Positions 7,595 through 20,706 of a stretch of DNA of 64,000 nucleotides are shown here, piece after piece; the first letter of the stretch is position 1, and each line of letters begins with the position of its first letter. Under the pieces are notes generated by a model, which made no database searches, had not been told where the DNA came from, and saw nothing but the letters and a program-made list of their open reading frames with translations. The DNA lies in contig NZ_OX424407.1 in NCBI RefSeq assembly GCF_949152215.1, forward strand, positions 1,120,530 to 1,184,529, given 5' to 3'. Made by a program: the position numbers and the translations under genes. The DNA comes from Lancefieldella sp. Marseille-Q7238. Lineage in GTDB: Bacteria > Actinomycetota > Coriobacteriia > Coriobacteriales > Atopobiaceae.

Positions 7595-9474
7595 TACAGT
7601 ACCGTTCCCGCAACGGTCTGCAGAACGAAAAGACCGCCTGCAGCCGCCAGATACGTGACCACGGCGATGGCCATTGACGTAAGGGAAAGCGCGAAGCCTG
7701 AAGTTTCCTGGTTCTTCTCGTCACGGTGACGAAGAACAGAGAGGTAGACGGGGGTTAGAAGGAACGAGAGCAACGTTGAGATGGTTGCTGCTCCAAAGGC
7801 CGAGATGACCACATGGTGAATGGTGACGCCTGCGGGAACGTTGATGAGCCAGTTCATGATGACCGCGTCAAGACCAGCTCCGAGCGCGGCAGTGACGCCT
7901 GATACTAGAAGGCCTAAAAGCAGTGAGCGAAAACCAAAGCCCAGGATAGAAGGGGAGTCTTCGCTGCCTGGATCGTCTTCAAGGAAGAAGTTAGTAACGT
8001 AGCTGATGGTGTCATCTGCGAGGATAAGCGCGACAGGCATGGCGAGACAGGTAAAGAACACCAGCGTTGGGGCGATGCTTGTATTGAAGAACGCGGCTGC
8101 TGCTGCCGATGCTACGCCGGTGGCAATAATCCAGAAAAAAATCCAGACGTTGCGATGGAAGAACCAGATAACGTCGCGGCTGCGCTCGCTGCCCTCACTA
8201 TCAGAGCTTCCTCCTGCGATTTGCAGGTCTTCAGCGTGCTCTTCTTCAAGGACGTCCAGCGCGTCGTCGACGGTAACGATACCAAGCAGGCGCTGATCGT
8301 CCGAAACAACGGGCATGGCAAGCAGATTGTATTTGGCGATATTGCGCGCGACATCCTCCTGGTCGTCTTCGGGTGACGCGGTAACAAGGTTCTTGTTGGC
8401 AATCTCATCGAGCTTTTGGCTTTGGTCAGAGACGATAAGCTGATTTAAGGTGACGATGCCCGAAAGGCGGCCGTCTGAATCTGTGAGGTAAAGATAGCGC
8501 ACCGTCTCAAAGTCCTCGTCAAGGGCGCGCAGCCGCTCAAATGCGTATGCGACCGTCTGATCTTCCGGCAGTGAGAGCGCCTCCGAAGTCATAATACGAC
8601 CAGCGGTATCCTCACGGTATCCCAACAGCTGGCGGATAGCGCGCTGTTCCTTGACACCCATCAGGCGCAGGAGCTTCTCGGCACGGTCATAGCTTAGTTC
8701 GGATACCAGCTCAGCGGCATCGTCCGGATCCATCTCAGACAGGATGCGGGACGCCTCTTTTTCGTTCATGCCGCCGATGAGCTCAACGGCCATGGCGTCA
8801 TCGTTGAACTCCGCCATAGCGCCGGCACGTTGCTCGTCGTCAAGTTGCGCGAAGACCTGGCTGCGCAGACGGGAGTCCAGGCGCTCGATAATGTCGGCGA
8901 CATCGGCGGGGTGCAGCTCATCAAGGGTTTTGTGTGAGACGGACAGTTTGACGTTGGAGAGGTCGCGCTCCACAAGATCCATGTAGCTCCACGCGATGAT
9001 GCGCTCCGGTATGGGACGACCCATGGCGCGTGCGGCCCGGATGACAATCTTTTCAAGCTTTGGTGACAGGCTGCGCAAAAGTCCCCGCACGCCCACTTCC
9101 GCGCCAAGCAAACGAAGCTGTGTTGAACTGGTGTCGGAGAGCTTGAGATCGTTTACGCGGACAACGCGAATGCCGCGCGTGTCTACTATCTGCTTGTTGA
9201 GAATGTCGCGGGCGAGAAGTACCTCATTAGGTTGCAGGTACGAGAAACGAATCTCAGTAGAGGGTACCTTCAGCTTAATGGTGTCTTCATCGTAGGATTC
9301 CACGTACTTGCGCCAGGAAATCATAAGGGGCGTGCGGCCGGGTCCCATGAATGCGAGGGAAGTGATGCGGGGAAAAACCTCGCCGGTAGCAATGCCAAGA
9401 TCGGAAACGGTGCCGATCTTCTCGCCAAGTGAATCCATGACAGGATTTCCAAGAAGTTGAGAGAGATAAATCAT
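7594..9474 (-). CDS. PRC-barrel / MgtE N-domain / CBS membrane protein
   Basis: This is a 626-residue protein with, in order, a PRC barrel (about 1-90), an MgtE N-type helical superhelix (about 170-285, with repeated LxxMDPDDAAELVSEL-type helices), two CBS domains (about 290-415) and roughly five transmembrane segments (about 445-626). In true MgtE channels the N and CBS domains sense cytosolic Mg2+ and close the pore. Here the membrane part lacks a recognisable MgtE GGNxGxQ motif, so it may be a diverged channel or a sensor subunit. The start ATG at 9474 is chosen because AAAGGAG lies just upstream; an in-frame extension to 9507 has no such site. It is coupled to the NRAMP-related gene and preceded by a long structured leader. 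Confidence 0.78.
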   Translation of the reverse strand: MIYLSQLLGNPVMDSLGEKIGTVSDLGIATGEVFPRITSLAFMGPGRTPLMISWRKYVESYDEDTIKLKVPSTEIRFSYLQPNEVLLARDILNKQIVDTRGIRVVRVNDLKLSDTSSTQLRLLGAEVGVRGLLRSLSPKLEKIVIRAARAMGRPIPERIIAWSYMDLVERDLSNVKLSVSHKTLDELHPADVADIIERLDSRLRSQVFAQLDDEQRAGAMAEFNDDAMAVELIGGMNEKEASRILSEMDPDDAAELVSELSYDRAEKLLRLMGVKEQRAIRQLLGYREDTAGRIMTSEALSLPEDQTVAYAFERLRALDEDFETVRYLYLTDSDGRLSGIVTLNQLIVSDQSQKLDEIANKNLVTASPEDDQEDVARNIAKYNLLAMPVVSDDQRLLGIVTVDDALDVLEEEHAEDLQIAGGSSDSEGSERSRDVIWFFHRNVWIFFWIIATGVASAAAAAFFNTSIAPTLVFFTCLAMPVALILADDTISYVTNFFLEDDPGSEDSPSILGFGFRSLLLGLLVSGVTAALGAGLDAVIMNWLINVPAGVTIHHVVISAFGAATISTLLSFLLTPVYLSVLRHRDEKNQETSGFALSLTSMAIAVVTYLAAAGGLFVLQTVAGTVL

Positions 9475-9669
9475 GTGTGCTCCTTTGTGCGGCTTGCGCG
9501 CAGGCAAGCAGCGAACTTGCGATTACACCCCTGACGGTGCAATCAAGCACACCGTGAGGGGTCAGCGACTGTGAGGTCGGGGTTTCATGCTGACCTTTCT
9601 CCTTAATCTCTTTTTCTTTATGACAGGTCTCATGGCAGCGTTCTAACAACAGCTGCTCTGTCAATAATC
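9475..9669 (-). promoter_or_regulatory. Long structured 5' leader of the cation-transport operon
   Basis: Two strong hairpins compete. On the minus strand GGTCAGC (9595-9589) can pair with GCTGACC (9566-9560). The overlapping segment 9561-9550 can instead pair with 9539-9528 in a 12-bp stem with one mismatch (CCCCTCACGGTG against CACCGTCAGGGG). Mutually exclusive stems upstream of a transporter operon are typical of riboswitch or attenuator leaders. The primary sequence does not show the conserved M-box core, so any ligand is unknown. Confidence 0.5.
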
Positions 9670-9675
9670 AAGAGC

Positions 9676-9684
9676 ATTGTAACA
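9676..9684 (-). promoter_or_regulatory. Extended -10 promoter of the cation-transport operon
   Basis: On the minus strand the sequence TGTTACAAT is an extended -10 element, placing a start near 9669 and giving a leader of about 195 nt. No convincing -35 hexamer is present, as is usual for extended -10 promoters. Confidence 0.45.
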
Positions 9685-9775
9685 GCCATAGAAGGCGGCA
9701 ACGGCGAGAAACTTTTGTGATGTTTATTTTTACGATGAAGGCGCCGGTGGCCAAATCGACTTCCAGCGGGCGCCT

Positions 9776-10132
9776 TTAGTATTCGGGGTTATCCACCTCT
9801 ACCTTGTCAGATTCCTGGAACGGAGCAAGGGTGGATATCATGACCATGGTTTCGTCGTAGGGATTGTTGACATAATGAACTTCACCAGGCTCGATGTGAA
9901 TGAAGTCCCCAGCGGAAAGCGTGTGAACTTCACCATCGACAACGATATCAACCATACCGCGCAGAATATGGAAGTTCTCTTCCATGACATGATGATAATG
10001 CGCCTGGAAATTTTGCCCCGGCTGGAATTGGACGACCGCGTAATTCATACGGGGGCCTTTCATAAGGTATTTTGGTCCCGAGTCGCCAAAACGATACTCA
10101 AAATCGCTCTCATGCACGACAAACATAGACAT
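9776..10132 (-). CDS. Small cupin-domain protein
   Basis: This is a single-domain cupin of 118 residues. The metal-binding motif 1 is seen as His45-x-His47 (or His48) with Glu52, and motif 2 as PGEVHYVNN with His86. Small cupins of this kind are often isomerases, or bind sugars or metals; no substrate can be named. It lies 38 bp downstream of the lsrK remnant on the same strand and may have been part of the same operon before that operon collapsed. A GGCGCC inverted repeat beginning at its stop codon (9731-9778) probably acts as its terminator. Confidence 0.8.
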   Translation of the reverse strand: MSMFVVHESDFEYRFGDSGPKYLMKGPRMNYAVVQFQPGQNFQAHYHHVMEENFHILRGMVDIVVDGEVHTLSAGDFIHIEPGEVHYVNNPYDETMVMISTLAPFQESDKVEVDNPEY

Positions 10133-10170
10133 ATCCTTTCATGTGTGAGTTTTTGGATAGTAATCTGTCT

Positions 10171-10692
10171 TTACAGCCCCGGCGCTCTCCAGAGGCCCTT
10201 GGTTTTTCCGGCTTCAGACAATGCGAGCTGAGCCTGATACACTTCTTTCCATGTCTCATACAGTTTCTGGTAGACGGCATGATTATCCGCATTGGGCTCA
10301 AAGGTTTGTTCCCATCTGACAACACGCTTGGCTCCTTCGGCAATGCTGGGATATATGCCTACTCCGTATCCTGCGAGAATTGCCGCGCCAAGGGCTGTAG
10401 CCTCCTTGACTTCAGGGACACGAACGCGCTTGCCGCATACGTCTGCAAGAATATGGGCCCATAAGGGGCTTTTGGAAGCTCCTCCCGCAAAGACCAGTTC
10501 GTTTGGTTCGTTGCCGGTGGCGTCTTTGACCAGATCGATATGGCCTTTGACGAGAAACGCTGTGTTCTCAAGAATTGCGCGGTAGAACGTATACTTATTG
10601 AAGCGCTTGGCATCAAGCTCGAAATTAGTAAATGTAGGACTCGCGTGAGTCCAGTGAATGTAGTTCATTACATCGCTGAAGCAGCAAAGCAT
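10171..10692 (-). pseudogene. lsrK: Autoinducer-2 kinase remnant, C-terminal third only
   Basis: The 173 readable residues correspond to the last third of a FGGY-type AI-2 kinase of about 530 residues. Diagnostic stretches are FSDVMNYIHWTHASPTF, LVFAGGASKSPLW, PEVKEATALGAAI and the terminal LWRAPGL, which closely follow the C-terminus of Escherichia coli LsrK. The sugar-kinase N-terminal domain and half of the ATP-binding domain are missing, so it cannot be active. Similarity stops at about 10680, exactly where the lsrB remnant begins on the other strand. LsrK phosphorylates DPD (AI-2) after import. The remnant is otherwise intact, with no internal stop codons, suggesting recent loss or tolerance of the fragment. 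Confidence 0.88.
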
Positions 10693-10982
10693 CCCCGCAG
10701 TCCATCAAGTCCTACTGTGAGCATGGCACTATTTACAACTGGGGTCTTTGGGATTGCGCTGTTCAAGGCGCTATGGGCTGCTACGTTGCGGCATACCTCG
10801 CCGCTGGCAATGAAGTTAAGGTTGGCGATACCATTTCTATCCCGAGTATTGGCGATGTCAAGGTAGAGGCAAATGATTCCATTGCCGAAGGCGCCAAGAC
10901 TGCCGAGAAGAACAACGGCGTAGTACTTTTGCCTGAGCGCCTGGTATTCACAAAAGAGAACATGAATAATTACGCGTTCTAG
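10680..10982 (+). pseudogene. lsrB: AI-2 binding protein remnant, C-terminal quarter only
   Basis: The frame from 10680 to the stop at 980-982 reads through TIYNWGLWDCAVQG, VGDTISIPSIGDVKV and VVLLPERLVFTKENMNNYAF. This matches the last ~100 residues of the periplasmic AI-2 receptor LsrB (family ending VLLPERVIF...KYDF). The signal peptide, the whole first lobe and most of the second are missing. An in-frame ATG at 10773 could start a 69-residue peptide, but this would be a meaningless fragment. The 5' truncation point coincides with that of lsrK, so one deletion explains both fragments. lsrF follows on the same strand. Confidence 0.85.
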
Positions 10983-11119
10983 TATTCGGTTTAAGCATCC
11001 AAGCGCTTCTCGACACTGAGGTTGAGCGCTTAGACAGCTCATTTTGTTGTACCTTTCTGCGTCGCATCGGCTACTGCCTCTGCCGGTGCGTCGCAGATTC
11101 GCCTAAAGAAAGGATTCAT

Positions 11120-11998
11120 ATGGCTGATCTTGATGGCCTTAAAGTTGCTAAGGATTATCACGTTGATACTCCTTTCGCTAACGACCAAGGGTTTTATGTA
11201 AAGGGTGCGAATAATCTTGATTGGGGTATGCAGAAGCATCTTTCCAATATCTTTGACCCTAAGAGCGGCAATACGGTCATGTTCGCTTTTGATCATGGGT
11301 ATTTCATGGGCTCAACGGCCGGTCTTGAGCGTCTTGACTTGCTGCTTCCGCAGCTTGCTCCCTATGTTGATTGTTTTATGGGCACGCGAGGCGCGCTTCG
11401 TAGCTGTGTTCCTCCTCAAATATCCAAAGGTATCGCGCTTCGCGTGACTTCAGGCTCTTCGATGCTCCAGGCCGATCTTTCACATGAGGTCGTTGCTGTG
11501 GATATCGAGGACACTATCCGCATGAACGCCGACTGCATGGCTGTTCAAACATTTATCGGAGCTGACGGTCAGCTTTCCAGCATTGACAATCTGAGCCAAG
11601 TGGTCAATGCCGGTTTCCATTACAGCATTCCAACACTCGGTGTTTGTGCGGTTGGCAAAGATATGGAGCGTACGGGTCGTTTCTTCAAGCTGGCTACCCG
11701 CATCATTGCTGAGATGGGCGTCCAGATTGTGAAGACTTATGACTGCGAAGACTTTGAAGAGGTTGTAGCTGCTTGTCCGGTGCCGATTGTGGTTGCCGGT
11801 GGTAAGAAGCTGCCTGAGCGCGAGGCTCTCAACCTTGCTTATGACGTTATCAGGAAGGGTGCTCGTGGTGTTGACATGGGGCGCAATATCTTCCAGAGCA
11901 CCCACCCCTTACAGATGGCCGAGGCTGTTCGCAAGATTGTGCATGAAGGAGCAACTGACGCTGAGGCGTGGGAGTTCTTTGAGGACGCGACGCACTAA
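11120..11998 (+). CDS. lsrF: 3-hydroxy-2,4-pentadione-5-phosphate thiolase
   Basis: This is a 292-residue class I aldolase-like protein (DeoC/FbaB fold) of the length expected for LsrF. The Schiff-base lysine is visible at Lys205 in QIVKTYDC; other family stretches are MFAFDHGYFMG, MGTRGALRS and PVPIVVAGG. In the lsr pathway LsrF transfers an acetyl group from the isomerised AI-2 phosphate to coenzyme A. Here it is the only intact lsr gene. The kinase and receptor are remnants, and transporter, repressor and LsrG genes are not seen, so its substrate supply is unclear. Start ATG 11120 has AAAGAAAGGA upstream. A strong terminator follows. Confidence 0.88.
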   Translation: MADLDGLKVAKDYHVDTPFANDQGFYVKGANNLDWGMQKHLSNIFDPKSGNTVMFAFDHGYFMGSTAGLERLDLLLPQLAPYVDCFMGTRGALRSCVPPQISKGIALRVTSGSSMLQADLSHEVVAVDIEDTIRMNADCMAVQTFIGADGQLSSIDNLSQVVNAGFHYSIPTLGVCAVGKDMERTGRFFKLATRIIAEMGVQIVKTYDCEDFEEVVAACPVPIVVAGGKKLPEREALNLAYDVIRKGARGVDMGRNIFQSTHPLQMAEAVRKIVHEGATDAEAWEFFEDATH

Positions 11999-12049
11999 GC
12001 AGATTTCAACTCCGCTTCGCTAAGAGTTTTGCTATCTCCCTCTTCTCAT

Positions 12050-12089
12050 AGCGAGAAGCGCTTGGAACCTCAGGCGCTTCTCGCTTTTT
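12050..12089 (+). terminator. Strong terminator after lsrF, built from an inverted GCGAGAAG pair
   Basis: A perfect 12-bp stem AGCGAGAAGCGC (12050-12061) / GCGCTTCTCGCT (12074-12085) with a 12-nt loop is followed by TTTTTG. Both arms contain the octamer that is over-represented throughout the window. Confidence 0.9.
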
Positions 12090-12203
12090 GTTTACTAAGA
12101 GTGGATCGATAGCGTTGTACCATGATGGCCGCCTTACAATGTAGGGGTATACAGGACGTAGAATTGGAATCGTCAAACAATTTGGATTGAGGCTGGGGTC
12201 AAT

Positions 12204-13529
12204 ATGCAAACAGATACGCTGATTTTGATTGTTGCTGCTGCGGCTGCTGTTATGGCCGCTATTCTTGCGGGTATGACCTGGAGCCGTACGAGAGATTCCG
12301 CGGAGACTTTCGCTTCGCTCTCCACGACTATCAGTGAAAAAATTGATTCAGAGATGAAGCACACACGAGAGCAGTCCCAGGCGTCTATTGACGTGCTTGA
12401 TCGCAGACTTTCCGAAATGACAGGTAAAGTTAACGATGTGGAACGTGCGATGGGGGATTTCAGAACAAGCACAATTAAAGAACTCGGCGATGCTCGGGCT
12501 GCACAAGAGAAGAGCTACGCTGCCATGCAAACCGGCATCAGCGGGACTTTGAAGGGCGTCCAAGACAGTGTTTCTCGCCAGCTTATTGCTATTCGCGAGG
12601 ACAGCAGCAGGAGCCTTGAGCAGATTCGTGCCACCGTTGACGAGAAACTCCAGAAAACGCTGAATGACCGTATCAGCGAGTCGTTTAAGCTCGTCAACGA
12701 TCAGCTAGATTCTGTTTCCAAAGGGCTTGGCGAGATGCGCGGAATGGCGCAGAGTGTCGGTGATTTGCGCAAAGTCCTTTCCAACGTTAAGACCAGAGGC
12801 ATTGTTGGCGAGGTGCAGCTAGGAGCAATCCTTGAGGAGGTTCTTGCTCCAGAGCAGTATGAAACCAATGTGGCGACCGTTCCCGACAGCACCAATAGGG
12901 TTGAGTTTGCCGTCAAGATTCCCGGCAAGGACGATGAGTTTGTGTACCTGCCTATTGACGCAAAATTCCCTGGCGAGGCCTACGGACACCTGGAAGATGC
13001 GAAAGAAGCCGGCGACGCCGCGGCCATTGACGTCGCTTGGAAAGAACTGGAAACTCGTCTGAAAAGTGAGGCGAAAGACATCCACGAGAAGTATGTTGCC
13101 CCGCCGGCGACCACGTCATTCGCGGTTTTGTTTTTGCCCTTTGAGGGGCTGTATGCCGAGGTAGTGAATCGCACAGGTTTGGTCGAGCAGATTCAACGGG
13201 AGTGGCATATCAATATTGCCGGTCCGTCCACTATGGCAGCACTGCTCAACGCCCTGCAGATGGGATTTCAGACCGTGGCCATTCAAAAGCGTGCGGATGA
13301 GATACAAAAGGTGCTTGCGGCGGTCAAGGCGGAGCTGCCCAAGTATCGGCGTGAGCTTGAGAAGGCGCAGAAGCAGCTGAATACGGCATCGAAGACTATC
13401 GACGGGCTTGTTGGCACACGCACGCGGGCCATGGAGAAAACTCTCAAGGGCGTGACCGCCGTTGGTTCTTTGGATGAAGCAGACGGGCTTCTCGGCATTG
13501 AAGACCAGATGGATGACGGGGACGAGTAG
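12204..13529 (+). CDS. rmuC: RmuC-family DNA recombination protein
   Basis: This is a 441-residue protein. An N-terminal membrane anchor (residues 1-20, LILIVAAAAAVMAAILAGM) is followed by a long coiled coil (about 25-170) and then the RmuC nuclease-like domain (about 190-400). The latter contains the characteristic GIVGEVQLGAILEEVLAPEQY and YLPIDAKFPGEAY. RmuC proteins limit recombination at inverted or short repeats and in E. coli act in phage defence; the core is related to PD-(D/E)xK nucleases. Start ATG 12204 has GAGGCTGGGGTC upstream, a weak site. The next gene follows 31 bp later. Confidence 0.88.
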   Translation: MQTDTLILIVAAAAAVMAAILAGMTWSRTRDSAETFASLSTTISEKIDSEMKHTREQSQASIDVLDRRLSEMTGKVNDVERAMGDFRTSTIKELGDARAAQEKSYAAMQTGISGTLKGVQDSVSRQLIAIREDSSRSLEQIRATVDEKLQKTLNDRISESFKLVNDQLDSVSKGLGEMRGMAQSVGDLRKVLSNVKTRGIVGEVQLGAILEEVLAPEQYETNVATVPDSTNRVEFAVKIPGKDDEFVYLPIDAKFPGEAYGHLEDAKEAGDAAAIDVAWKELETRLKSEAKDIHEKYVAPPATTSFAVLFLPFEGLYAEVVNRTGLVEQIQREWHINIAGPSTMAALLNALQMGFQTVAIQKRADEIQKVLAAVKAELPKYRRELEKAQKQLNTASKTIDGLVGTRTRAMEKTLKGVTAVGSLDEADGLLGIEDQMDDGDE

Positions 13530-13560
13530 CTACGACAATGCATGAAAGGGCATAGCAACC

Positions 13561-14228
13561 ATGGAATTTATTCTTGATACCGCTATTTGGATGCTGTAAA
13601 GAAGCTCGATGAGTTACTAACTGTTGCCGGCGTGACTACCAATCCCACAATTATTGCCAAGAGTGGTAAGAGCCCTGAAGATGTTATCCGGCAATTCGCG
13701 GAGTATTTGCATCCTGAGCAGAAATTCTTTGTCCAGACAGTTTCAACAGAGTATAAAAAGATGCTGGAAGAGGCCCGTTACATTTGCAGCCTTCGTCCCA
13801 AAAACACATATGTCAAGATTCCTGTTACCCACACAGGTTACAAGGCGATAAAAAAGCTGAAATCTGAGGGTCTTGGCGTTCTGGCAACAGCCATCTATTC
13901 TGCTGATGAGGCCTTTTTGGCAGCGTTGAATGGAGCTGACTATCTGGCTCCCTATGTCAACCGCATGTGCAATTATGGCGATGGCATCGGGCAGGTCATA
14001 GATTTGCTTCAGATGCTTGAGACCCAGGGATTGAACTCGAAGGTCATTGCCGCGTCATTTAAGAATGCCGAGCAGGTTCACACTCTTATCACTGCTGGCA
14101 TTCAGGCAGTGACTGTTCCACCTGAAATCGCCTATACGATGATCGGTCATCCTGGAACTGAGATTGCCGTTAAGGAGTTTACTAAGAACTGGCAGGCTAC
14201 TTACGGTCGTGATTCTCTGAGAGGCTAG
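13561..14228 (+). pseudogene. Fructose-6-phosphate aldolase / transaldolase-like gene with a one-base deletion
   Basis: ATG 13561 begins with the family N-terminus MEFILDTA, but the frame then hits TAA at 13597-13599. The remaining 213 codons continue in another frame from TTG 13587 (DAVKKLDELLTVAGVTTNPTI). Reinserting a single A at about 13585 restores D-T-A-N-L-D-A-V, the family consensus. The Schiff-base lysine is intact in TYVKIPVT (Lys86 of the restored protein), as is the C-terminal domain. Fsa/TalC enzymes join dihydroxyacetone or a similar donor to glyceraldehyde 3-phosphate. Without the first beta strand, which carries the conserved Asp6, a product started at TTG 13587 would probably be inactive. 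A sequencing error at this site is the main alternative. Confidence 0.82.
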
Positions 14229-14558
14229 CAACTTGTCAGAGAACTTGTTGCACTTTCATTTCTTCATACATGAGGCGATGCTATTAGACTCTTGGTTCCG
14301 CTTTCCGTAGCTTTCCGTTTTCTCCGACTTTGAAGTTCTTTGCCTCTTCGCATCAATTTTGGCGGAGATAATTTCTCACATAAAAACCTTATACAAAGAC
14401 ACTTAGATTATGTATATAAACTTGACATAGGGGGAATAACCTCAACCGTAAAGCAGAAACACCGCAGGCGTGGTGTGGAGAAAAGTCCTGTTGGAGAGGT
14501 AGTTTCATAACAAGGGGCTTCTCGCCAACTGAGCCTGCAAAGGAAAGGAACACTAACT
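14229..14558 (+). other. Upstream region of the dnaK operon
   Basis: These 330 bases contain no gene. A weak hairpin GCAAC/GTTGC (14227-14251) may end the preceding gene. The shared heat-shock box lies at 14398-14409, AT-rich promoter-like sequence at 14410-14430 includes TTGACA, and one CTTCTCGCC copy lies at 14518-14526. The distance from the box to the dnaK start (about 150 bp) implies a long untranslated leader. Confidence 0.6.
14398..14409 (+). promoter_or_regulatory. Candidate heat-shock operator upstream of dnaK
   Basis: GACACTTAGATT is identical to the box upstream of clpB (21571-21582) and differs at two positions from the box upstream of hsp20 (25721-25732). A weaker, AT-rich inverted partner (ATATAA) follows 5 bases later. 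It is not the canonical actinobacterial HAIR element CTTGAGT-N7-ACTCAAG. HspR, encoded in this operon, is the obvious candidate binder. Confidence 0.6.
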
Positions 14559-16472
14559 ATGGGAAAGATTCTTGGTATCGACCTTGGCACCACCAACTCG
14601 GCTATGGCCGTCCTTGAGGGCGGAGAGCCGACTATTATTGTGAATGCTGAGGGAGATCGTACTACTCCGTCGGTCGTGGGCTTCCGCGCTGACGGCGACC
14701 GCATTGTTGGTAAAGCGGCAAAGAACCAGGCTGTCACCAATCCGGTGAACACTGTGTTCTCCATTAAGCGCTTCATGGGCCGCAAGTTTGACGAGGTTCA
14801 GTCCGAGATGAAGACCGTTCCGTACAAGGTCAAGTCCGGTACTGACGGTCGCGCGGTCGTGGAGATTGAGGGCACCGATTATACGCCTGAGCAAATCAGC
14901 GCCATGATTCTCTCAAAGATGAAGGCTGATGCCGAGAAGTACCTCGGTGAGAAAGTGACCGACGCTGTCATCACTGTTCCTGCCTACTTCAATGACTCTC
15001 AGCGTCAGGCAACCAAAGACGCTGGTAAAATCGCCGGCCTCAACGTTCAGCGTATTGTCAACGAGCCGACGGCAGCCGCTCTTGCCTATGGTCTTGATAA
15101 GAAAGATAAGGATCAGAAAGTTCTCGTCTTCGACCTTGGTGGCGGCACCTTTGACGTCTCGCTTCTTGATCTTGCCGACGGCGTTGTTGAGGTTCTTGCT
15201 ACCAATGGCGACAACCACCTCGGTGGCGATGACTGGGACCAGCGCGTGATTGACTGGCTTGCCGATAAGTTCAACTCCGACAACGGCATTGATCTTCGCA
15301 AGGATCCTATGGCGCTTCAGCGCCTGAAGGAGGCTGCGGAGAACGCCAAGAAGGAGCTCTCAAGTGCTCAGCAAGCACAGATTAACCTGCCATTTATTAC
15401 CGCCGACGCAACCGGTCCTAAGCACCTTGACTATACGCTGACTCGCGCTGAGTTTGAGCGCATTACGCGTGATCTGCTTGATCGCTGCAAGACTCCAGTA
15501 ACCAAGGCACTCCAGGACGCCGGTCTCCAGATTTCCAGCGTTGATGAGGTTATTCTTGTCGGTGGCTCCACTCGTATGCCTGCCGTTCAGGATCTTGTAA
15601 AGACCATGACCGGCAAGCAGCCCAATATGTCCGTGAACCCGGACGAAGTTGTTGCTGACGGCGCGGCTGTTCAGGGCGGCGTTCTGACCGGTGACGTTTC
15701 CGGCATCCTGCTTCTGGATGTTACCCCGCTTTCCCTTGGCGTTGAGACCATGGGCGGCGTGATGACCAAGATGATTGACCGCAACACCACCATTCCGACG
15801 TCCAAGACCGAGATTTACTCCACGGCCGCTGATAACCAGACGTCCGTTGAGATTAACGTCCTGCAGGGCGAGCGCGAGATGGCTGCGGACAACAAGTCGC
15901 TCGGTAAGTTCAACCTGACCGGCATTCCGGCTGCTCGTCGTGGTACCCCGCAGATTGAGGTTACCTTTGATATCGACGCCAACGGCATCGTGAAGGTCAC
16001 CGCAAAGGACAAGGCAACGGGCAAGTCCCAGGAGATTACCATCTCCGGCTCCACGGCGCTTTCTGATGACGAAGTCGATCGCATGGTCAAGGACGCCGAG
16101 TCCCACGCTGAGGAAGACAAGAAGCGTAAGGACGAGATTGAGATTCGCAACCAGACCGACTCGCTTGCGTACGGCACCGAGCAGACCCTGAAAGATCTGG
16201 GCGATAAGGTCCCCGAGGATCAGAAGAAGGCTACCGAGGAGGCCGTCGCTGAGGCTCGCAAGGCGCTTGAGGGCACCGATATCGAGGCTATCAAGGCGGC
16301 TGGCGAGAAGCTCCAGGAGGTTGGACACAAGCTCGCCGAGGTGGCGTACGCTGACGCCCAAGCTCAGACCGCTGGCTCCGATAACGCCTCTGCCGACAAC
16401 GCCAACGCGGCTGACGGTGATGTTGAAGACGCTGATTACGAGGTTGTTGACGACGATAAGTCTCAGAACTAA
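14559..16472 (+). CDS. dnaK: Molecular chaperone DnaK (Hsp70)
   Basis: This is a 637-residue Hsp70 of standard length. The nucleotide-binding domain starts [13 protein letters not shown] and contains the phosphate loops [13 protein letters not shown] and [12 protein letters not shown]. The linker [12 protein letters not shown] leads to the substrate-binding domain and a helical lid, ending in an Ala/Asp-rich tail. It folds nascent and stress-damaged proteins with GrpE and DnaJ, encoded immediately downstream. The starting ATG has AAAGGAAAGG upstream. It is the first gene of dnaK-grpE-dnaJ-hspR, the actinobacterial order in which HspR represses its own operon. Confidence 0.98.
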
Positions 16473-16609
16473 GTCGCGGGCGGAAGGGCTTCTCGCCGCT
16501 GCCGTACAGCAAACGGGCGGATAGAGAGCGAGCAAAAGCAATGACGTTCGCATCGGGGAGGTGGCCGGCTTTGATTGGCTGCCTCCCTCACATATAGAAG
16601 GAGGGTGAC

Positions 16610-17512
16610 GTGAACGTGCCAATCGATGAAGTGGGCAAAGATGCCAAGGGAGGCAATGACGCCGCTTTTGAGAATGAGAACAACGGAAGCGCTCAGACGG
16701 GTGCTGCGGGCGTAGATGGCGCTGCGGTGACTGGCGCTGCCGGCGTAGATGGTGACGCAGTAGCTGGCGCTGCCGGCGCGGTCGCTGTTGACAGCCTTGA
16801 TGAGCAGGCCATGGTTGAAGAAGCTATCCGCCGCGGAGAAGAGCAGGCGGAACGCGAGATTGCGGAAGACGCCAACAAAGCGCGCGCTGAACGAGATGCT
16901 TTACAGTCTCAGCTTGACTCTATGGCCGATCAGATTGAGGCTGCCAAAAAGGAGGCCTCAGAAGCTACTGACAGGTTCATGCGCTTGCAGGCTGACTGGG
17001 ATAACTATCGCCGCCGTACGGCTCAGGAGCGCTTGGATGAGCGCGAGCGTGCAACGGAGAAGCTGGTAATCGAACTCCTGCCGGTCATTGATGACTTAGA
17101 GCGTGCAATAGAGCATGCCGACAATTTGACAGACTCGCAGTCGGTGCAGTTTGTTGAAGGCGTTTCGGCAGTGAAGAACAAGCTTGTGGGCGTGCTCAAC
17201 AAAGAGGGCGTCAACGTGATTGATCCTGCCGGCGAGGCATTTGATCCGCTGTCACATCAGGCGGTCGGCCAGGTCGAGGACGCTGAAGCCTACGATGAGA
17301 GTGTTGCGCAGGTGTATCAGAAGGGTTATCGCATGGGTGGCAAGGTTATCCGTACCGCTATGGTAACGGTAACCCACGGCGGCCCTAAGCGCCCTGAACA
17401 GGACGCGGCGGAAGCTTCCGGTAGCCACGGCATGACAGGCAGCTCTGACAATGGTGCCAATGCCGACGGTTCCAAAAACGCCGAGTCCGGTGATGACAAG
17501 AGCAAGAAGTAA
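16610..17512 (+). CDS. grpE: Nucleotide exchange factor GrpE
   Basis: This is a 300-residue protein, longer than typical GrpE (about 200) because of disordered ends. The first 65 residues contain an in-frame 33-bp tandem DNA repeat (16700-16783) that encodes GAAGVDG-type units. A coiled coil (about 80-140) and the GrpE head domain follow, with DNYRRRTAQER, ELLPVIDDLERA and the signature ending YRMGGKVIRTAMV. GrpE releases ADP from DnaK. The start is GTG 16610, behind GAAGGAGGG. The 137-bp gap after dnaK contains a CTTCTCGCC copy at 16489-16497 and may hold a processing or attenuation signal. Confidence 0.95.
   Translation: MNVPIDEVGKDAKGGNDAAFENENNGSAQTGAAGVDGAAVTGAAGVDGDAVAGAAGAVAVDSLDEQAMVEEAIRRGEEQAEREIAEDANKARAERDALQSQLDSMADQIEAAKKEASEATDRFMRLQADWDNYRRRTAQERLDERERATEKLVIELLPVIDDLERAIEHADNLTDSQSVQFVEGVSAVKNKLVGVLNKEGVNVIDPAGEAFDPLSHQAVGQVEDAEAYDESVAQVYQKGYRMGGKVIRTAMVTVTHGGPKRPEQDAAEASGSHGMTGSSDNGANADGSKNAESGDDKSKK
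16700..16783 (+). repeat. 33-bp in-frame tandem repeat inside grpE
   Basis: Units at 16700-16732 and 16733-16765, plus a partial third unit to about 16783, each begin GGYGCTGCSGGCG. They encode repeated Gly-Ala-Ala-Gly segments in the disordered N-terminus of GrpE. Copy number could vary between strains. Confidence 0.8.
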
Positions 17513-17547
17513 GTAAAGTTTTTTATGAGAGGAGGTCGTGCTGAATC

Positions 17548-18480
17548 ATGGCCGGAAAGAAAACATTTTATGACGTTCTGGGGGTGAAGCGCGACGCCTC
17601 GAAGAGCGATATTCAAAAAGCCTTTCGCAAGCTTGCCGCTAAGTATCATCCTGATGCGGGTGGCGATGAGAAAAAGTTTAAGGAGATTTCTGAGGCGTAC
17701 AACACGCTCTCAGATGAGTCTAAGCGCAAGGAATACGACCAAATGCTCATGTTTGGCGGCATTCCCGGCTCGGGCTTTGGCGGTCGCGGCACGCAGGGTG
17801 GCTATACCTATACCACCAACGTTGATGGCGCCGATTTTGCCGATATTTTTGGCGGCATGGGTGGCATGGGCGGCTTTGATTTCTCGTCTATCTTCGGCGG
17901 CGGTAGAGCTACCGCTAACAGGCCGTCTGCCGGCGGAGATTTGACGATGTCCGTTCAAGTGAGCTTTAACGAAGCTCTCAAAGGTACTTCTCGCAAAGCA
18001 ACCTATCGCATCCCTTCAACGGGAGAGGAGCAGACGCTTACTATCAAAGTGCCTGCGGGCGCTTATGACGGCATGAAACTCAGGTATAAGAAGCGCGGTG
18101 AGTACGGGAGCAACGGCGGACAGCGTGGCAACTTGGTGGTTTCCATTAAAGTTGATGAGCATCCGCTGTTTAAGCGTGACGGCGCGGACGTGCGTATGGA
18201 GCTGCCTATCAGCATGTATGAAGCAGCTTTGGGCGCGACGGTTGAGGTGCCTACGCCTGACGGAACAACGGTCCGCCTGAAGGTTCCCGCCGGTACGCAG
18301 AACGGCAAGACGTTCAGGTTCCGTGAGCTGGGCGCGCCGCGCGTGAAGAATCCGGAGTCCCGTGGCGCTTTGTACGTGTCGGTCAAGGTAAAAATTCCTA
18401 CAAGACTGACCAAAAAGGAGCGCGAAGCGTTGGAATCTTTGAAGAATGACGACGCGCGTAGCTACCGAAAGGATGTGTAA
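17548..18480 (+). CDS. dnaJ: DnaJ-type co-chaperone without zinc finger (CbpA-like)
   Basis: This is a 310-residue J-protein. Residues 1-70 form the J domain with His34-Pro35-Asp36. A Gly/Phe-rich linker with GGMGGMGGF repeats follows (about 70-120), then two beta-sandwich substrate-binding domains. The CxxCxGxG zinc-finger repeats of classical DnaJ are absent, so it is of the DnaJ2/CbpA class. It stimulates the DnaK ATPase and delivers substrates. It is the only J-protein in the operon, 35 bp after grpE, with GAGAGGAGG upstream of ATG 17548. A classical DnaJ may be encoded elsewhere. Confidence 0.93.
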   Translation: MAGKKTFYDVLGVKRDASKSDIQKAFRKLAAKYHPDAGGDEKKFKEISEAYNTLSDESKRKEYDQMLMFGGIPGSGFGGRGTQGGYTYTTNVDGADFADIFGGMGGMGGFDFSSIFGGGRATANRPSAGGDLTMSVQVSFNEALKGTSRKATYRIPSTGEEQTLTIKVPAGAYDGMKLRYKKRGEYGSNGGQRGNLVVSIKVDEHPLFKRDGADVRMELPISMYEAALGATVEVPTPDGTTVRLKVPAGTQNGKTFRFRELGAPRVKNPESRGALYVSVKVKIPTRLTKKEREALESLKNDDARSYRKDV

Positions 18481-19053: not shown

Positions 19054-20700
19054 ATGCTGAGATATCTCTATCTGAATCAAAAAGGCAAACTCATTCTCTT
19101 TGTTGTTTTCTCCCTCCTAAGCAGTTTGTTTGAAATAGCGCTTTCATATGTGATGCTGCAGTCCGTTGACCTTGCCGTGAGCGGTCAGCTTTCGGATGCC
19201 TTGAACTACGGGCTTTGGTTTGCCCTGTATATTGCTTGTTACTTCTTTGTGGATCTGCTCTGCAGGCACCTTCGCTGGGCGGTGCTTCGCGGCAGCCAGA
19301 CAAATTTGCGTGATGATCTTATGCAACAGATCCTCAAGCAGCCTGTTCCTGAATTTCATACGCACAATACTGCTCAGTGGCTTTCCGTACTTACCAATGA
19401 TCTTGATCTGCTTGACGAGACCTATTTTCGTGTCTTTGTCGATACGCTGGTGGATATTTTCTCCGGCGTCGTCAGCTTGGCGATCCTTCTGTTCATATCA
19501 CCGTGGCTTGCACTCTTTATTCTCGCTATGATCGCCGTTCAGATGCTGATTCCTAAGTTTATGGCGCCTCGTATTTCCAAAAGGCGAGCAGAGCAGTCTA
19601 AGTCGGCAGAGCGTTTTACGGTCACCGCCAACGAGCATCTTGAGGGCTTTGACCTCCTGAGAAGCTTCCATCTTAGTGAGGCTTCGCGAGAGGCAATGAG
19701 TGAGGCAAACCGGAGTTGGGAAGAGAGCAGGTTTCAGGCGCGCTATGTGAGTTCGCTGGCACGCCTGCTTTCCTTTACCGTAGGCCAGATCATCTACATC
19801 GGCATTTACTTCATCGGAGCCATCCTCACTCTTCAGGGTCTGATGACAGTCGGCATGATGGTGGCGGCTTCTCAGCTTGTGGTCTACATTGCAAGCCCCA
19901 TCCAAAATGTCAGCGATGCCATCACTGATATGCGTGGCGCCAAGGAGATCATCAGGAAGTTCCGCGCTCTTCTCGATAGGAAGGACTCTGCTGAAGACGG
20001 AACAAGAGATATCCCCTCGCAGTTCTCAAGCCTTACTGCAGACCATGTTTTTTACAGTTACGATAAAGAGCGTCCTATCCTATCGGATATCAGCTTCAGC
20101 CTTGAGCGCGGCGGCAAGTATCTTCTTGAGGGAGATTCCGGAAGCGGCAAGACTACACTGATCCATCTGCTGATCGATGCGCTGCAGCCGGACAAAGGGC
20201 AGATCCTTTTGGACGGACATCCCATCAAAGAGTATAAAAGCGAGAAGTATGCCCGCTTTATCATCCCCTGTTCTCAGCAGACCTTCATTTTTAACGCAAG
20301 TATCCGAGACAATATCACTTTATTCCAGAAGACTTTTAGCGACGAAGAGGTAATTGTTGCTCTCAAGCAATCGGGCTTTGAGGAGATCCTCACGCGATAT
20401 CCGGAGGGTCTGGATCACCTGATCCACCAGTCGGGAAGCAGTCTTTCCGGGGGAGAGAGGCAAAGGCTGGCGCTGGCCCGCATCTTCCTCTTCAAGCCTC
20501 AGATCGTGATCTATGACGAAAGCTTTGCGCACCTGGACGCCGCATCGGTTCAAAGTTTGATTGATGCGGTGATGGCGGATACGGACAGGACCGTTATCAT
20601 GACGTCTCATCAGGTAACGCCTGAGATCAGAAAGCGTTTCCGGTCTCTTGTTCTGAGGAATGGGGATGTCCGAGAGCAGGGTAAGGACGACTGCCGCTAA
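19054..20700 (+). CDS. ABC-type exporter, fused membrane and ATPase domains
   Basis: This is a 548-residue half-transporter. Residues 1-310 contain six transmembrane helices. The ATPase domain follows, with Walker A GDSGSGKTT (about 358-366), Q-loop CSQQ, signature LSGGERQRLALAR (about 464), Walker B IVIYDE (about 484-489) and the switch histidine in MTSHQ. All catalytic residues are present, so a homodimeric exporter is likely; the substrate is unknown. The start ATG 19054 is preferred over an upstream in-frame GTG at 19003 because GGAGAAGGGG precedes it. It separates hspR from the toxin-antitoxin pair. Confidence 0.88.
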   Translation: MLRYLYLNQKGKLILFVVFSLLSSLFEIALSYVMLQSVDLAVSGQLSDALNYGLWFALYIACYFFVDLLCRHLRWAVLRGSQTNLRDDLMQQILKQPVPEFHTHNTAQWLSVLTNDLDLLDETYFRVFVDTLVDIFSGVVSLAILLFISPWLALFILAMIAVQMLIPKFMAPRISKRRAEQSKSAERFTVTANEHLEGFDLLRSFHLSEASREAMSEANRSWEESRFQARYVSSLARLLSFTVGQIIYIGIYFIGAILTLQGLMTVGMMVAASQLVVYIASPIQNVSDAITDMRGAKEIIRKFRALLDRKDSAEDGTRDIPSQFSSLTADHVFYSYDKERPILSDISFSLERGGKYLLEGDSGSGKTTLIHLLIDALQPDKGQILLDGHPIKEYKSEKYARFIIPCSQQTFIFNASIRDNITLFQKTFSDEEVIVALKQSGFEEILTRYPEGLDHLIHQSGSSLSGGERQRLALARIFLFKPQIVIYDESFAHLDAASVQSLIDAVMADTDRTVIMTSHQVTPEIRKRFRSLVLRNGDVREQGKDDCR

Positions 20701-20706
20701 GGTTTC

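Follow-up and report, generated by a model that had tools for sequence, protein, structure and literature searches.

How does an AI-2 uptake (lsr) locus come to consist of an intact lsrF preceded by the tail ends of lsrK and lsrB, which face each other from opposite strands with their 5' parts gone? This arrangement occurs in a 64,000-nucleotide stretch of the Lancefieldella sp. Marseille-Q7238 genome (the whole stretch analysed, hereafter the window). The initial annotation explained it by a single deletion that left the C-terminal third of the AI-2 kinase LsrK, the C-terminal quarter of the receptor LsrB and an intact LsrF behind them. This description of the surviving parts is accurate, and both stumps are indeed free of internal stops. 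One gene had been left out, a conserved cupin gene that is part of the locus but lies just outside the annotated segment (10171-11998). Two intact genes, the cupin gene and lsrF, are left at the scar. The features of the locus are as follows:

9776-10132, minus strand: intact cupin gene (118 aa), directly downstream of lsrK; Cupin_2 E 3e-18; identical to F0494 (see below)
10171-10695, minus strand: 3' stump of lsrK (AI-2 kinase), last 174 of 543 codons; NF008187 positions 350-521 of 521, E 5e-63, and alignment with F0494 lsrK
10689-10695, no strand: deletion junction, the lone copy of a 7-bp direct repeat (GCATCCC); exact match to positions 2653-2659 and 9570-9576 of the F0494 locus (L035)
10689-10982, plus strand: 3' stump of lsrB (AI-2 receptor), last 97 of 375 codons; NF011937 positions 248-340 of 340, E 2e-25 (frame 10695-10982), and alignment with F0494 lsrB
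11120-11998, plus strand: intact lsrF (3-hydroxy-5-phosphonooxypentane-2,4-dione thiolase); NF006081 full length, 399 bits against a cut-off of 297, E 9e-120
12050-12085, plus strand: terminator-like hairpin 3' of lsrF, a 16-pair stem followed by a T-run, from a consensus scan only

As called, the open reading frame of the lsrK stump spans 10171-10692 (minus strand). The lsrB stump has no signal peptide, and its first in-frame ATG, GTG or TTG is at 10773. A fused or new reading frame joining both stumps across the junction is ruled out by their opposite strands.

Scanning genome contigs with LsrF uncovered an intact parent locus, of the kind that the initial annotation had recommended looking for. 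It belongs to Atopobium sp. oral taxon 199 F0494 (Coriobacteriia; L035), another strain of this species, which is represented by these two genomes. In F0494, the cupin gene, lsrK (543 aa) and lsrR (311 aa) lie on the minus strand, followed by lsrA, lsrC, lsrD, lsrB (375 aa) and lsrF on the plus strand. Aligned with this locus, the window lacks 6,917 bp and is otherwise equal to it; window 8037-10695 corresponds to L035 1-2659 (99.8% identity) and window 10689-18000 to L035 9570-16881 (99.4% identity). Both endpoints are thereby defined. The window sequence follows F0494 up to L035:2659 and continues as F0494 from L035:9570 onwards, with GCATCCC common to both, and this repeat is present once at the window junction versus once at each deletion end in F0494. 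The junction contains no extra DNA, neither stump has a frameshift, and collinearity with F0494 extends to the 7-bp repeat from either side. The stumps do meet, as had been read from the sequence, although at 10689-10695 by alignment with F0494 rather than at 10680-10692. A single deletion also explains the layout as proposed; removing 6,917 bp between the two GCATCCC repeats turns the F0494 locus into the window exactly. We consider it almost certain that the locus is the scar of one recent deletion in the lsr locus, in one of the two strains compared in this species.

In the ancestor, cupin-lsrK-lsrR would have been transcribed divergently from lsrA-lsrC-lsrD-lsrB-lsrF. The loss of lsrR, lsrA, lsrC and lsrD, of the divergent promoter region, and of the 5' two-thirds of lsrK and 5' three-quarters of lsrB would then be due to recombination or replication slippage involving one GCATCCC copy in lsrK and another in lsrB. 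At random breakpoint pairs in both arms, a shared stretch of at least 7 bp occurs with a frequency of 0.0005. Direct repeats of up to 14 bp are present between the arms, but the deletion used none of these longer ones. The ends were perhaps brought together by a 12-bp inverted repeat beside them, as CTGCGGGGATGC at the left end and GCATCCCCGCAG at the right end are exact reverse complements of each other. There are 1,245 direct-repeat pairs of seven bases between the arms, and the used pair alone has an inverted match of 12 bp no more than 30 bp away. Because this match is unique to the used pair, slippage or template switching aided by inverted pairing seems a reasonable mechanism, although the pairing was noticed post hoc.

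The intact, collinear order is also found in a sister Atopobium (L036), in A. deltae (L037) and in the other complete Atopobiaceae loci; among these, no gene order incompatible with a single deletion was seen. Since the sister species and other Atopobiaceae genera are intact and collinear, the comparison indicates that the intact state is ancestral and the deletion derived. A profile search of 140 Atopobiaceae genomes found LsrK over the cut-off in 16, and among the genomes listed, only the window genome has the C-terminal LsrK remnant alone. The stumps differ from F0494 by 1 base and lsrF by 1 silent base, the LsrF proteins being 100% identical. The suggestion that the event may be recent is supported by this close similarity. 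With two genomes of the species compared, the deletion may even have arisen during culture passage.

We also asked whether the lost genes are present elsewhere in the genome, a single contig of 1,599,921 bases with 99% completeness. Neither a full-length lsrK or lsrB nor any lsrA, lsrC, lsrD or lsrR was found elsewhere in this 1.6-Mb contig; the initial annotation had pointed to full-length duplicates as evidence against its reading and to lsrACDR as genes to look for. Searches with the deleted DNA and with the kinase, binding-protein and permease families gave no second copy of the lost genes. The deleted segment matched the rest of the genome in short stretches only, with no long match, and for lsrR a DNA search of the genome found nothing beyond short chance-level stretches. 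The only other FGGY kinase in the genome reaches 71 bits, where the cut-off is 528, and no LsrB was found in the genome outside the stump, using both the binding-protein family and the deleted-segment DNA. The remaining permeases of the LsrC/D superfamily resolve to a galactose (Mgl) and a branched-chain amino acid (Liv) system, together with two systems of BMP/B6 type. A ribose-type importer was rejected as an alternative AI-2 route, the nearest system being Mgl. Of the components of functional lsr uptake, LsrB, LsrA/C/D, LsrK and LsrR are missing, while the LsrF thiolase is present. As luxS is present and no other copy of the lost genes was found, the strain probably still makes AI-2, but neither imports nor phosphorylates it via the Lsr route.

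The deletion also removed the lsrR-lsrA intergenic region, the expected site of lsr promoters. A consensus scan of the plus strand upstream of lsrF gave one sigma-70-like site only, no better than those in shuffled sequences, and lsrF is probably without its operon promoter. The LsrF substrate derives from phospho-AI-2. Because Lsr import and phosphorylation are lost, LsrF and the cupin would both be without their normal substrate, which agrees with the earlier remark that LsrF has no visible substrate supply. Given its need for a substrate derived from phospho-AI-2, LsrF would most likely be an idle remnant, and lsrF appears to be in early decay. That lsrF is still intact follows from how young the event is and gives no reason to assume another role.

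It has to be considered that the surviving LsrF and cupin were instead selected for a reduced function, acting on an LsrK-independent substrate (phospho-AI-2 made by a different route, or a different keto-sugar phosphate). Neither gene is disrupted and their protein sequences are unchanged relative to F0494, but the deletion is so young that this says little about selection. Reduced loci do exist in some Firmicutes (L045, L046, L047, L057, L081 and L102), where cupin-lsrK is directly divergent from lsrF with no lsrR or lsrACDB nearby; however, these loci keep a full-length lsrK. Within the Atopobiaceae, a genome with 6% contamination contains a possible orphan lsrF (G016:C3:3674-4543), with neither an over-cut-off LsrK nor a cupin. 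The failure to see a plausible lsrF promoter in the window also speaks against a retained function, which we consider unlikely, and we continue to regard LsrF as most likely an idle remnant.

An assembly or cloning artefact in the window genome is very improbable. Relative to F0494, a 1-base frameshift is present near 13584 in a fructose-6-phosphate aldolase-like gene (fsa), which could hint at such an error, but there are only about five single-base indels versus F0494 in 64 kb, a 7-bp repeat should not confuse an assembler, and the genome is one contig with 99% completeness. Stepwise decay, in which several separate deletions or rearrangements gave this net junction, is more improbable still: the locus is patchy in the lineage, with both lsrF and an over-cut-off lsrK absent from two other species of the genus (G001 and G003), but the clean junction and collinear flanks described above argue against it.

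Beyond this single deletion, the two strains differ at several other places. The fsa gene (window 13561-14228, plus strand) is frameshifted after codon 8 and intact in F0494. Thus, no more than about 3 kb from the junction, a second gene of sugar-phosphate metabolism is broken. In dnaK (window 15023-15410), about 20 base differences are clustered, with few elsewhere nearby; this looks like a short homologous recombination tract. At window 20663-20704, F0494 has about 1.4 kb extra, including a frame resembling part of an ABC-transporter ATPase. Indels of 13-40 bp relative to F0494 occur at window 364, 634, 1936, 3510, 24458, 24636 and 24877, several of them at short tandem repeats.

The cupin gene is closely tied to lsrK. 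In all 68 lsr loci with enough flanking DNA (68/68), lsrK is followed directly by the cupin gene in the same orientation. Across the 140 Atopobiaceae genomes, a profile search placed strong cupin matches (>200 bits) in the window genome and in precisely those 16 whose LsrK exceeds the cut-off, although these 17 genomes are related and the coincidence does not represent 17 independent events. Two weaker relatives (121 and 136 bits) are found in other genomes of the family. A cupin match at 1e-20 is present in 6 of 72,556 plasmid records, and it lies directly beside lsrK where its position was seen (L. paracasei NZ_CP064315 and Salmonella NZ_CP092913 and NZ_LN868945; three of the six records examined). 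Deinococcus psychrotolerans has a more distant cupin after lsrK (36% identity over 101 residues).

The cupin is predicted to have an all-beta, single-domain fold (pLDDT 88), and residues H45, H47, E51, E52 and H86 are invariant in 67 sequences. Its two motifs supply the His, His, Glu and His ligands of a metal-dependent cupin, and metal binding is predicted. Among its closest solved relatives are the archaeal cupin phosphomannose isomerases (7zvm, 7zvy) and KdgF, which resemble it in fold and single-domain size at about 19-24% identity. It matches cupin families only, with no match to the LsrG families NF007791 and PF03992. Of 13 genomes whose lsr loci are cupin-linked, 12 have no PF03992 match, in a search that detected the control set in E. 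coli, and no LsrG-family gene was found in the window genome (PF03992 search) or in F0494. The gene that follows lsrK in Thalassospira, Ensifer, Sinorhizobium and Alloyangia is annotated as 'antibiotic biosynthesis monooxygenase'. Its products in the first three (Alloyangia being outside this test) score 104-121 bits against the LsrG model NF007791, just below its cut-off of 135.

We tentatively propose that the cupin belongs to the core of the lsr loci of Coriobacteriia and Firmicutes without having been recognised as such, and that it may be a non-homologous replacement of LsrG, isomerising phospho-AI-2 to the LsrF substrate from the slot after lsrK in which several Alphaproteobacteria carry an LsrG homologue. 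A mutarotase or other processing role is an alternative to a phospho-AI-2 isomerase. A strict replacement of LsrG is weakened by Salmonella enterica, whose lsr locus (lsrKR / lsrACDBFG) has a cupin directly after lsrK, 41% identical to that of the window, but also has LsrG, so the cupin is not the sole candidate for the LsrG step there. Judged by its number, the Salmonella lsrK-adjacent cupin is probably STM4071, which was grouped with the lsr genes under AI-2 metabolism in an expression table of a fabR mutant (PMC4804515). The lsr systems of SGB009/BVAB2 and SGB080, both vaginal bacteria, have been reported to lack lsrG (PMC11306104). Our literature search, with most subscription journals outside its scope, found no relevant paper linking lsrF or lsrK with a cupin, and an earlier report is possible.

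The locus of E. coli K-12 has the same divergent layout and gene order as F0494 (lsrKR / lsrACDBFG, quoted correctly in the initial annotation), with proteins 34-53% identical. However, E. coli K-12 has lsrG and no cupin, whereas the window lineage has a cupin after lsrK and no lsrG was found; of the E. coli genes, the window keeps only lsrF intact. Several other bacteria have lost lsr genes. The locus is absent in most E. coli of phylogroup B2, including strain 83972, which keeps luxS (PMC12263705); E. coli BL21 lacks lsrRK and one Shigella flexneri strain lacks lsrFG (PMC3420918); and lsr pseudogenes are known in strains of the Bacillus cereus group, as are lsr deletions in Photorhabdus strains (PMC2561040). 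The lsr-negative or partial E. coli, Photorhabdus and B. cereus group strains resemble the window in showing loss or breakage at the strain level, in 83972 also with luxS kept. The scar itself is therefore ordinary, as intraspecies loss of lsr is already known elsewhere. Unlike those strains, the window has an intact sibling and exactly known endpoints, and it belongs to the Coriobacteriia rather than the Enterobacteria or Bacilli.

Here, we describe a natural strain pair of one oral species, with and without Lsr uptake, in which the change is defined to the base. Such a pair could show the role of AI-2 uptake in a commensal outside the Enterobacteria. For the step that a missing lsrG leaves vacant, the cupin would be a concrete candidate.
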